A stretch of DNA of 64,000 nucleotides from Cyanobacteria bacterium FACHB-471 (lineage in GTDB: Bacteria; Cyanobacteriota; Cyanobacteriia; Elainellales; Elainellaceae): NCBI GenBank assembly GCA_014695345.1, contig JACJOC010000020.1, positions 62,001 to 126,000 of the forward strand. Direction: 5' to 3'. Position 1 is the stretch's first letter; every line of letters begins with the position of its first letter. Shown here piece by piece: positions 42,763-47,017 of the stretch. The notes under the pieces were generated by a model. That model searched no databases. It was not told where the DNA came from and saw only the letters and a list, made by a program, of their open reading frames with translations. A program made the translations under genes and the position numbers.

Positions 42763-43896
42763 CTAGAGATGAGTCGGCAATTCCACCGTAAACAGACTAC
42801 CCTTGCCCAACTGAGATTCAACCTCAATGGTGCCCCGGTGCGCTTTGATAATTTGGCAGGAAAGATGTAGCCCCAGTCCACTACCCGATCGCTTGTGGTT
42901 GCCGTGGCGGAACGGCTCAAACAAAGAGCTGTGATACTCTGGCGAAATTCCTGGGCCAGTATCTTCGACTTCTACCTTGACCCAAGATTCAGCAGATTGG
43001 TCTGCCTTTACGTGAACGGTGGTGCTGAGTCGAACGGTGACTGAGCCAGTGTCCGTAAACTTGACCGCGTTGCCGACTAAATTGGTAAAAACACGGTGTA
43101 GTTCCAGGCGATCGCCCCGCAGCTCAATCAGCTTATCATCGTTGGCAAGATTCGTTTGCAGAGCCAGTCCCTTATCGAGGGCAATCGGCATCAGCCCTTG
43201 CACAACTTCCTTAAGCAGTTGGCGCACATCGATTGGGGTCAGGCTAAGCGTCTTCCGTCCTGCCTCATAGCAATAAACCTGAAGCAAGGTATTGACCATA
43301 TCGAGCAGATTTTGATTGCTGCGCTCCATGGTCGCCAGGGCCTCTATGACCTCAGGAGACAACTCGCCCAACGCCCCCTGCTGCAGCAACGACATCATCC
43401 GGTCTGCTGCTACAAGTGGAGTCCGCAGATCATGAGTAAGACGCGAGACAAAATCTTCACGCTGACGGGCAATTTGATCTCGCTCATCAACACTGTGCTT
43501 GAGTCGCAGCAGCGATCGTACCCGGGCTAACAGTTCATCAAACTCAACGGGTTTACGAATGAAATCATCTGCACCAATATCCAACCCTTGCGACACACGG
43601 GGTTGGTCGTGAGCCGTAATCAATAAAATTGGAATAAACGGCAGCTTAGCGTTTTTACGAATCCGCTGTGTTACCTCAAAGCCATCCATTCCTGGCATCA
43701 TCACGTCTAGCAGTAGCAGATCGGGTGGAGACGCATTAATGTAGGCGAGAGCATCGCTGCCATTGTTGAGAACGTCGATCTTATATCCCTCTTCCTCCAA
43801 AATTGCTTGAATTAAAAACGTGTTGTCGGGCGAATCGTCTACAACGAGAACGCGATCAACTTTGGAAGATCTACCAAATAGGGGCGAGTAGTCCAT
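42763..43896 (-). CDS. Response regulator/histidine kinase hybrid
   Basis: Cytoplasmic signalling protein with an N-terminal receiver rather than a sensor. 377 residues: REC domain with phospho-acceptor Asp in LLLLDVMMPGMDG and acid pair VVDDS; HisKA with His in RLTHDLRTPLVAADRM; HATPase_c with N box HRVFTNLVGNAVKF, G1 EDTGPGI and G2 GSGLGLHLS. Input therefore comes by phosphotransfer from another kinase; the ultimate partner is unknown. The 400-base region before it is non-coding apart from a hairpin. Confidence 0.94.
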   Translation of the reverse strand: MDYSPLFGRSSKVDRVLVVDDSPDNTFLIQAILEEEGYKIDVLNNGSDALAYINASPPDLLLLDVMMPGMDGFEVTQRIRKNAKLPFIPILLITAHDQPRVSQGLDIGADDFIRKPVEFDELLARVRSLLRLKHSVDERDQIARQREDFVSRLTHDLRTPLVAADRMMSLLQQGALGELSPEVIEALATMERSNQNLLDMVNTLLQVYCYEAGRKTLSLTPIDVRQLLKEVVQGLMPIALDKGLALQTNLANDDKLIELRGDRLELHRVFTNLVGNAVKFTDTGSVTVRLSTTVHVKADQSAESWVKVEVEDTGPGISPEYHSSLFEPFRHGNHKRSGSGLGLHLSCQIIKAHRGTIEVESQLGKGSLFTVELPTHL

Positions 43897-44312
43897 GAAA
43901 ATTATTACTTAGTCACGATATATAGAAAGAACGACTGTCAAGAGCTTTTTTGAAGATCTTCTCACCTCAACCCGCTTTTTGCCTCCTACCAACGAAGTAT
44001 TCTTCAGATTTTCTTTAGTATTTTTACTTAGCCTGCTTCCTCAGAACAGCCTCTTCATGTCAAGGACAATGAACCCTGCTCAGTGTTCTTATACCGTTTC
44101 TATAAAAACAAGCCACAGATGGAAGGGCACCTCGTCTCGCAGGATGTCCTTCCATCTGTGACGCTATTTCTGGTAGCTCTAATGTTTGGAAGTGGTATTA
44201 GAGAACCTGTTCAACACGGCTTAAGTGAAGATTTCTAGCAGAAACGCAATTGTAGGAACATTTTGTGTTTTGAAACAGGTCGCTATTCATAGCATTGGTT
44301 GCAAATCTTGAT
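43897..44312. other. Divergent intergenic region before the L,D-transpeptidase gene
   Basis: 416 bases between divergent genes, with the hairpin described at 44114-44160 as its main structure. The 60-codon open frame from 43979 ends inside that hairpin, has no family features and is not counted as a gene. No RNA gene is recognisable. Confidence 0.5.
44114..44160. repeat. Perfect 13-bp inverted repeat
   Basis: CACAGATGGAAGG (44114-44126) and CCTTCCATCTGTG (44148-44160) are exact complements with a 21-base loop. No T-run follows on either strand within a few bases. It may be a dispersed palindrome or an mRNA leader structure of the transpeptidase gene 150 bases downstream. Confidence 0.6.
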
Positions 44313-44852
44313 ATGAAACGCTTCACCTGTCCTGGCTTACTCTTATCTTTGAGAAAATTTGGGGTTCAGGTTTCCCTAACTACGGCATTGGCGCTAGCAC
44401 TCTCCATTGCTGGAGCAAAATCTGGGTCAGTATTGGCGGTCGAGCCATCTGACAATGCAGAGGCGATCGCTACTCGCATGTACGACTTACAGCAGTCGAG
44501 CCAACGTTGGATTCAGGTTGACCTGTCTACACAGCGCTTGATTGCTTGGGAAGGCGGCAATCCGGTGCGGGCAGTGATTGTCTCAACTGGCAGAGACGCA
44601 ACTCCTACCCTGACTGGCACATTTGAAGTTCAATCTATGCATCGCGTCGCGCGAATGCAGGGAGATGACTACGACATTCCCGATGTGCCGTTTGTGATGT
44701 ACTACTCCGGTAACTATGGAATTCACGGTGCCTACTGGCACAATCAGTTTGGCGTGCCGATGAGCCACGGTTGTGTCAATGTTGCTGTCGATCACGCGGA
44801 GTGGTTGTTTAGTTGGGCAGAGATGGGCACCCCAGTTGTAGTGCATGAGTGA
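44313..44852 (+). CDS. L,D-transpeptidase (YkuD family), exported
   Basis: Cross-links peptidoglycan stems or anchors lipoproteins outside the cytoplasm. From MKRFTCPGLLLSLRKF there are 179 residues: a signal peptide with core VSLTTALALALSIAGAKSGSVLA, then the YkuD domain (WIQVDLSTQRLIAWEGG to the end) with catalytic motif HGAYWHNQFGVPMSHGCVNV, giving His, Ser-His-Gly-Cys. A TTG six codons upstream also opens the frame; the ATG is preferred. No LysM or peptidoglycan-binding domain, so it is a minimal enzyme. Confidence 0.92.
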   Translation: MKRFTCPGLLLSLRKFGVQVSLTTALALALSIAGAKSGSVLAVEPSDNAEAIATRMYDLQQSSQRWIQVDLSTQRLIAWEGGNPVRAVIVSTGRDATPTLTGTFEVQSMHRVARMQGDDYDIPDVPFVMYYSGNYGIHGAYWHNQFGVPMSHGCVNVAVDHAEWLFSWAEMGTPVVVHE

Positions 44853-45575: not shown

Positions 45576-45816
45576 GACTGCCCCAACATTTGCCCACTCA
45601 AACCGTTTGCAGCACTATAGCGAATTCATTTAAAGCATGGAGCGAATAGAGCGATCGCAAAGCAAAGTTTTGGCTTGAGAATTGTGAGTTGGAGCGATCG
45701 GAAATTCTAAGAAAGATTAAGTTGATTTAAGTTTCTACCTGTTTCATTTCGTCCCAAGAAGTTCTTTGGTATTCTGAGGAACATTCTTAAAAAATTAAGG
45801 AAGAGGTAAGAAACTT

Positions 45817-45927
45817 ATGAAAACTTCAAAACATCTGGGACAATCTATCTCCATGGTTCTTCTATTCGCTCTAGCCAGCGTAGGAGTAATCGGCATTATC
45901 ACTATGCAGAGTGGCGCTTTACCCTAG
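45817..45927 (+). CDS. Small single-pass membrane peptide, 36 residues
   Basis: Short open frame too small for usual gene finding: begins MKTSKHLGQSI, continues with one hydrophobic helix (SMVLLFALASVGVIGIITM, about residues 12-30) and ends QSGALP. A purine-rich stretch AAGGAAGAGG lies about 10-20 bases before the ATG. The basic N-terminus and single helix suggest a type II or tail-less membrane peptide, like small subunits of photosynthetic or respiratory complexes. I do not recognise it. It is isolated in a 737-base gap and followed by a strong terminator at 46000, supporting a short independent transcript. Confidence 0.6.
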   Translation: MKTSKHLGQSISMVLLFALASVGVIGIITMQSGALP

Positions 45928-45999
45928 AAAAGCGCTGTTCTAAAGAAGCTGTGTGTTTGTCATTAGATTTATTAAATCAGCTTTACTCAATCCAATTTG

Positions 46000-46026
46000 A
46001 AGGCACTTCTCAGGAAGTGCCTTTTT
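46000..46026 (+). terminator. Rho-independent terminator
   Basis: AAGGCACTTC (46000-46009), loop TCAG and GAAGTGCCTT (46014-46023) form a perfect 10-bp stem running into a T-run, TTTTT ending at 46026. It is the best intrinsic terminator in the window and ends the transcript of the small peptide gene. The rest of the gap to 46312 shows no gene. Confidence 0.9.
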
Positions 46027-46312
46027 GCTGACGCTAGTTTCGCCAAGGTTTTGCAGTAGATGCCTTTTATCTAGCACGACTGCAATCGTCTGATAACACA
46101 AGGAAATAAGAATTACTTAAAATTACTTAACAGAAAAGAGGATTCAAGCAATTTCTCGCTAATAAACTCCTGGCACGTTCAGCCTGTGCCACAAACAAAA
46201 ATCAAATTGACACGACTTTCTAGGCTTACTTTCAATACTTAAAAACCTCTAGCAGCCTTGGGTTACACTTTGCCAACCATGTTACGAAAACGGCTGAAAG
46301 TTTAACCTGATC

Positions 46313-47017
46313 TTAAAGCCGTTGTAATAAGCTCAGACCGTGGGTATCTGTGCCACAAGTGCTGAATAGACTGTGGGTCTTGCTTAATAGCTCTATTTCT
46401 TGCGTTTGCTTTGGACTAGGTTTCCAGGGTTGAGGGTTGTTGTAAGCGTAGTATGTCTCCACCCCATCAATCCCCAGTCGGGCTGCTTCAGGTATCAGTT
46501 GGTGGTGCGATCGCCGATAGCGAGCCGGATGTGCCAACACTGCCAGACCACCTGCCGCTTGAATGGCGTGGATGACTTGCTCCGCCTGGTAGTGATCTCC
46601 GGTGCTAGACTCTCGTTTTAGATAAGGCTGAAGTGCTGAGTGAGTTGGATCAAACGCATAACCAAGGATGTGTACCTCGGTTTCTAATAGTCCAGCGTTA
46701 ATTTCTACGCCCGTCCAGAGGCGAGGCACAGTACCGACCTGAGCTAATTCGGGCGTGTACCACTGTAGCCACTCTTGCGCAGCATAGTAGCCCTTGACCG
46801 TGTGGTGATCGGTGATTGCTAGTCCTTTTAGACCGAGAGCGATCGCCTGTTCCATCAACCGCTCAGGCTGCAACCTGCCATCTGAGCAGACAGTGTGCAT
46901 GTGGAAGTTGTATAAACGTGGGCAGCTCTCTAGGGTGATCGTGTCAAAGACGCGCTTTAGTGCTGGTGCATCCTGCGCTGCTATCTGAGCGGAAGCCTGA
47001 GCAAGATTGGCAGCCAT
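46313..47017 (-). CDS. PHP-domain phosphoesterase
   Basis: 234-residue metal-dependent phosphoesterase; substrates of relatives include 3',5'-nucleotide bisphosphates and RNA 5' ends (RnaAM/YciV-like). PHP motifs: NFHMHTVCSDGRLQP (HxH), LAITDHHTVKGY, HPARYRRSHH and CGTDTHGLS at the C-terminus. The N-terminal 30 residues are an extension. Near the ispF gene on the same strand (50 bases) but with no functional link that I can see. Confidence 0.85.
   Translation of the reverse strand: MAANLAQASAQIAAQDAPALKRVFDTITLESCPRLYNFHMHTVCSDGRLQPERLMEQAIALGLKGLAITDHHTVKGYYAAQEWLQWYTPELAQVGTVPRLWTGVEINAGLLETEVHILGYAFDPTHSALQPYLKRESSTGDHYQAEQVIHAIQAAGGLAVLAHPARYRRSHHQLIPEAARLGIDGVETYYAYNNPQPWKPSPKQTQEIELLSKTHSLFSTCGTDTHGLSLLQRL

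Follow-up and report, generated by a model that had tools for sequence, protein, structure and literature searches.

A gap of 737 bases in the window (the whole stretch of DNA analyzed, 64,000 nucleotides long) had been described in the first-pass annotation as holding a lone gene for a 36-residue membrane peptide. The gap indeed spans 45576-46312, and is bounded by a divergent upstream frame and by a PHP-domain gene. The following features, given in window coordinates, were identified in the gap and at its convergent border.

45707..45734, plus strand: triple direct-repeat box, in outline CTAAG-N5-TTAAG-N5-TTTAAGTTT, with a 10-bp period; putative OmpR-type activator site
45766..45775, plus strand: extended -10 element TTGGTATTCT, a conserved motif
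45782..45816, plus strand: predicted 5' UTR, its start inferred from the -10 element and not measured
45817..45927, plus strand: microprotein gene, 36 residues, stop included, supported by translation, homologue searches and codon-level selection
45835..45846, plus strand: codons of L7-G8-Q9-S10, the most strongly conserved motif of the family, lying on the side that carries positive charge
45847..45906, plus strand: codons of the predicted membrane-spanning part, roughly residues 11-30, from hydropathy and the AlphaFold2 helix 3-32
46000..46026, plus strand: intrinsic terminator with a perfect 10-bp stem, a TCAG loop and a T tail, from the sequence and a hairpin scan
46313..47017, minus strand: convergent neighbour encoding a PHP-domain protein of 234 aa (Pfam PHP, E 3.2e-8)

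From the ATG at 45817 to the stop codon at 45927, the frame encodes MKTSKHLGQSISMVLLFALASVGVIGIITMQSGALP. It is closed in frame six codons upstream of this ATG, for a total open frame of 42 codons, and AAGGAAGAGG at 45797-45806 is the ribosome site of the 36-codon frame. The single hydrophobic helix that had been proposed for this short frame was borne out by hydropathy, with a maximum Kyte-Doolittle mean of 2.48 (19-residue window), and by AlphaFold2, which modeled one helix over residues 3-32 at a mean pLDDT of 82 from single-sequence input. Averaged over 41 loci, the net charge is +1.27 before the helix and +0.07 after it. Since charge precedes the helix and none follows it, the N-terminus is expected to be cytoplasmic, and our best reading is a monocistronic microprotein predicted to span the membrane once in an N-in orientation. 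The conservation moment along the helix was not significant (p 0.10), and no packing face was demonstrated. Together, the frame, its ribosome site and the downstream hairpin support the earlier proposal of a small membrane-peptide gene with its own terminator.

Comparison with two same-genus genomes gave identities at codon positions 1, 2 and 3 of 28, 34 and 18 of 35 for the first and 27, 34 and 15 of 35 for the second. Pooled over nine close pairs, in which two sequences were used twice, pS was 0.508 and pN 0.083, corresponding to a pN/pS of 0.163. Both the pN/pS ratio and the codon-position identities indicate purifying selection on the 36-codon frame. Identity in the 3' UTR is lower: 46/72 and 50/72 in the same two genomes, where the first two codon positions together reach 62/70 and 61/70. 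A terminator conserved beside an unconserved frame had been named in advance as the pattern that would speak against a gene; we found instead a frame under purifying selection and a less conserved 3' UTR. Based on these sequence comparisons, we are nearly certain that the 36-residue microprotein gene is real and coding.

A search of 60 related genomes, the own one among them, with the peptide itself gave matches in 24 at E<=1, two of them reaching E 0.4-0.5 only, and 50 of 388 class genomes, again with the own genome counted, matched at E<=0.01. A profile of 36 rows, A3, matched 81 of the 388 at E<=0.01 and 76 at E<=1e-4, the latter in one place per genome. The 24 of 60 related genomes and the 76 profile matches put conservation of the peptide in cyanobacteria beyond chance. 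The family is patchy, with 307 of 388 genomes lacking a profile match at E<=0.01 (a count in which short matches may have been missed), and for this reason the microprotein is not considered a core subunit.

The family was characterized in 41 regions, comprising the window and 40 loci, of which 33 non-redundant ones were used for motif, conservation and terminator counts; the eight left out are close relatives (L092, L055, L089, L086, L087, L091, L088 and L084). LG is invariant and S nearly so across the 36 aligned rows. With the non-redundant loci aligned at LG, Q or E comes next in 33/33 and then S in 32/33, while helix position +14 is S or C in 32/33 and position +16 is G in 27/33. Exceptions to the motif are rows with LGN and LGS, and VG in L234. 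Members consist of LG(Q/E)S followed by one hydrophobic helix, in about 31-41 residues, with uncertain starts. The QSGALP end, which had been suggested as a search target along with the helix, is present only in some nearer relatives of the window, and the family mark is LG(Q/E)S before the helix.

Searches of Pfam and NCBIfam returned no significant match to the peptide, Rfam had no match at gathering score, the plasmid and phage collections contained no family match, and no chain among the PDB sequences scored better than E 0.38. SecG chains in the PDB, at E 0.38 and 0.45, were dropped as relatives, the alignments covering the hydrophobic stretch only, and the single PHROGs match, obtained with one of the three queried members at E 0.014, was taken as chance. 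None of the titles listed from the open-access literature searched concerns the LGQS family, and the label "undescribed" holds within that scope. The LGQS family is a new family among cyanobacterial single-helix microproteins, and its distinctive point is a conserved, near gene-specific promoter.

The terminator, AAGGCACTTC-TCAG-GAAGTGCCTT-TTT at 46000-46026, has the perfect 10-bp stem reported for it, although the stem starts after 72 bases rather than the 73 previously given. It is identical at 25/27 and 21/27 positions in the two same-genus genomes. This hairpin is absent from the output of the consensus scan, probably since some of the T run belongs to the stem; our own scan gave it a score of 16. 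Taking a score of 14 or more in that scan as strong, we found strong terminators within 220 nt of the stop codon in 14/33 non-redundant loci versus 0/330 dinucleotide shuffles. The terminator scan gave no match at all in 17/33 loci, including the same-genus L053, which has a stem mismatch. The 3' part of the transcript region folds with a z of -1.78.

We searched 200 nt of upstream sequence from each of the 33 family members for motifs and recovered two elements, the 28-bp box and the extended -10. Their log-likelihoods were 231 versus 92-95 in three mononucleotide-shuffled sets and 89 versus 39-42 in shuffled sequence, respectively, with shuffles that kept single-base composition only and were run with fewer restarts than the real set. 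In the two same-genus genomes, identity is 25/28 and 26/28 for the box at 45707..45734, 10/10 in both for the -10 element at 45766..45775, and 37/41 and 39/41 for positions 45776-45816. The two elements are 33-36 bp apart in 23/33 loci; in the other 10, one or both are weak or misplaced. Relative to the predicted start, the box lies at about -75 to -48, in the region from which OmpR-type regulators activate; the two repeats closest to the start occupy about -65 to -48.

The promoter is closely tied to the family gene. Within 1.49 Mb of neighbourhood DNA, all 45 sites above 22 bits were upstream of a family gene, with none in the reversed control, as were 50 of 51 sites above 18 bits, with one in the reversed control. 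A site above 22 bits was also present in all 14 frame-bearing loci recovered around named PHP-domain genes, at least nine of which come from genomes that did not train the matrix. Across 388 genomes, a promoter profile fell upstream of the family gene in 42/42 matches at E<=1e-5, 45/46 at 1e-4 and 50/56 at 1e-3, a specificity that is in part built in, 30 such sites having gone into the profile; 19 of the 42 matches at E<=1e-5 are from genomes outside the profile, several of these being same-genus relatives of those used. Two of the matches lie 246 and 267 nt from the family gene and the rest 19-45 nt. Not every family gene has the promoter, as 26/76 have no promoter match among the matches listed. 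One diverged member, in G259, was hit weakly by both the protein and the promoter profile at the same place. The family locus is the sole 0-mismatch site in its own genome for a box pattern drawn from it, where 2 sites were found in total versus 4 in the reversed control; the second, with 2 mismatches and on the other strand about 920 nt before psbB, was taken as chance.

Six profile matches at E<=1e-3 lie elsewhere: one at psbB, three at the gene for a 106-aa protein, one at a frame that appears PurF-like by eye and one at a 460-aa frame. Among these, the psbB site and the 106-aa gene alone look repeated enough to be real. The 106-aa protein, which starts MRHFCDAWIEEWCEANGWTDLF or MKRFRDEWIDEWCQENGWTDLF and has no Pfam match, has the profile match upstream in L226, L227 and L230; these are three genomes from two different families, two of them belonging to one genus.

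Because of the promoter geometry and repeat period, the box would be read by an activator of the OmpR/PhoB family, and RpaB is the leading candidate. In the review PMC13421787, the RpaB site HLR1 is given as KTTACAWW-N2-KTTACAWW, with an activator position of -66 to -45. The box resembles HLR1 in its tandem repeats and 10-bp period, and would lie close to the HLR1 activator position if the predicted start (box at -75 to -48) is right, but has three repeats instead, with units of TTAAG/TTACG versus TTACA. The HLR1 consensus was found with two mismatches or fewer in 1/33 family upstream regions versus 16/660 shuffles, and with three or fewer in 14/33 versus 116/660, a count that speaks for RpaB. 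Judged by its sequence, the box is HLR1-like and not HLR1. The Pho boxes of SphR, as described in PMC1906773, also comprise three tandem CTTAA-like units, on the other strand, but these are 8 bp long with a 3-bp linker, an 11-bp period that the 10-bp period of the box does not fit.

In favor of RpaB, the sole profile match at E<=1e-4 off the family gene has its start 191 nt ahead of psbB (identified by Pfam PSII). A GTTACACTTCTTTATACA-like element was present 163-248 nt before psbB in all 30 relatives examined (L237-L266), with at most two mismatches in 25/30 and at most four in 30/30; the element of the own genome has two mismatches. The review PMC13421787 names psbB as an RpaB target, which likewise favors RpaB, but as one that is repressed rather than activated. 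We counted this repression against RpaB, along with further points: the profile finds almost no other gene and the RpaB regulon is large, and SliP4, the RpaB-controlled analogue, is reported to be up in high light, opposite to the prediction from the activator position. Also against RpaB, the exact box is nearly unique in the genome, and box scores are mostly low at psbB in the 30 relatives and at psaA in 12 loci, a psaA set drawn from 14 loci of which two have no readable start. TTAAG-like arrays before psaA in three loci of the window's genus scored 11.5, 10.9 and 9.3 bits, where 95% of shuffles scored below 9.4; two of the remaining loci reached 11.6 and 9.5 and the other 7/12 scored lower, making this signal weak. 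By eye, a TTTGAATTATTGTTAAC-like element was seen before psaA in 10/12 aligned upstream regions (L287, L288, L290-L294, L297, L298 and L301), at about 260-340 nt where the position is given. No clear box was visible by eye upstream of psaD, psaF or psaL in the own genome.

The small subunits of the photosystems, cytochrome b6f and NDH-1 are single helices. PsbX, PsaM, PetM, NdhP and similar thylakoid peptides share with the family a length of less than 50 residues (PMC5126843). They differ from it in that no PDB chain matched better than E 0.38, so that no solved small subunit of a photosystem, b6f or NDH complex was recovered, and in that the LGQS family is patchy. The own genome carries an additional psaB-like gene and a pair of psaL genes (C58:78388-80571, C72:11200-11622 and C73:343203-343634), and a second psbB, 73-77% identical, occurs in seven of 60 relatives. 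Such extra psaB-like, psaL and psbB copies may mark far-red photoacclimation clusters.

A described counterpart is SliP4/HliR1 of Synechocystis (37 aa), which is of similar size, likewise has one membrane helix and its own small gene, and for which RpaB control is reported in PMC12850537 and PMC5126843. SliP4/HliR1 starts MSNLIAVAF, as translated from the primers printed in PMC5126843, with no LGQS there; the comparison covered its end codons, which do not match those of the LGQS peptides. Its gene lies upstream of sodB, had no homologs reported beyond Synechocystis in 2016 and is induced by high light, whereas the activator position here predicts low light. Norf4 of Synechocystis (31 aa) is also a conserved cyanobacterial membrane microprotein found outside annotation, but it starts MTADQLL, without LGQS at the start, according to its printed primer, and its transcript overlaps gap1 (PMC5126843).

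We favor, tentatively and at slightly less than an even chance, a microprotein that is under an OmpR-type switch, with RpaB its likeliest regulator, and that serves as an accessory subunit of a probably photosynthetic membrane complex. An OmpR/PhoB-family response regulator, most likely RpaB, would bind the triple repeat, spaced at 10 bp, that immediately precedes the promoter and would recruit RNA polymerase there, so that the peptide would be produced under a particular light or redox state. Once inserted, the peptide would keep its charged N-terminus on the cytoplasmic side. Its helix would pack onto a bigger membrane protein, with the thylakoid as the likeliest site, and the peptide would serve a photosynthetic or NDH-type complex as a small accessory or assembly subunit. 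The build of the peptide and its genomic setting suggest such a subunit or an assembly factor, and a photosynthetic role is favored because the promoter is RpaB-like; we infer both the partner and the "regulatory or complex subunit" role that the first-pass annotation had suggested.

Small bacterial membrane peptides regulate targets such as membrane enzymes, sensor kinases and proteases. The main rival to the complex-subunit reading is that the microprotein regulates one such enzyme, kinase or protease, its box being read by an OmpR-family regulator other than RpaB, a scenario that we regard as plausible but doubtful. It fits a promoter profile that is nearly specific to one gene, as in a switch more than a large regulon, and a repeat unit that differs from HLR1. 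It is countered by the lack of a conserved neighbour that could be the target, as the upstream genes vary and the constant PHP-domain gene is convergent.

In 9/41 regions (7/33 non-redundant), a response regulator gene precedes the family gene by no more than 500 nt in the same orientation, and the one tested has receiver and GerE domains; we take this regulator to be Rre1/Ycf29-like. Upstream neighbours otherwise vary and, judged on their first 60 residues, are presumably uvrC-, queA-, pyrC- or prs-like or encode a NarL-type regulator. In the window itself, a YkuD L,D-transpeptidase (Pfam) is located just upstream at 44295-44849, and a frame at 42763-43896, also just upstream, resembles by eye a fused receiver and histidine kinase. 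The most constant neighbour is the adjacent, convergent PHP-domain gene, found in 25/41 regions and 21/33 non-redundant loci; the microprotein gene, which had been described as standing alone in its gap, has in this respect a constant neighbour. That it acts as the functional partner of this phosphoesterase is improbable. Adjacency in those 25 regions argues for a partnership, as do 14 of the 80 named PHP loci kept (the best 80 of 509) in which a family frame was found at E<0.01, including Oculatella, Laspinema, Gloeocapsopsis and Gloeocapsa records. However, 66 of the 80 have no family frame at E<=0.01 within the DNA examined (some of these loci being truncated), a PHP gene of this kind is missing beside 16/41 family members, and genes in convergent orientation do not share a transcript.

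A hydrophobic peptide of the type I toxin class would have this size and single helix, and its own terminator in 14/33 loci, but we consider this highly improbable given one place per genome at E<=1e-4, the PHP neighbour shared in 21/33 loci, purifying selection that is strong, a promoter of activator type that is kept from family to family, and plasmid and phage collections without a match; the search for an antisense RNA partner covered Rfam, where nothing reached the gathering score. A small or dual-function RNA with an incidental frame, suggested by the short predicted transcript, strong terminator and folding of the 3' part, is barely tenable beside the coding signature, a 3' UTR that is conserved less well than the first two codon positions, and no Rfam match at gathering score. 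Both readings are disfavoured by selection, the single place per genome, position and the absence of plasmid or phage relatives.

Small membrane proteins tune cyanobacterial photosynthesis, and to our knowledge few of them are known outside Synechocystis. If the favored reading of an accessory subunit under an OmpR-type switch were extended, the LGQS peptide could be a thylakoid microprotein controlled by a regulator of the RpaB class. In cyanobacteria other than Synechocystis it would remodel photosynthetic complexes, matching SliP4 but acting in the opposite light state, and its near gene-specific triple-repeat promoter would have kept its geometry across at least six families; we put this forward as a speculative, rather unlikely possibility. 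A compact, deeply conserved activator-type promoter could identify its regulator, and two separate conserved marks, the peptide and the promoter, make the gene findable in new genomes and directly testable.
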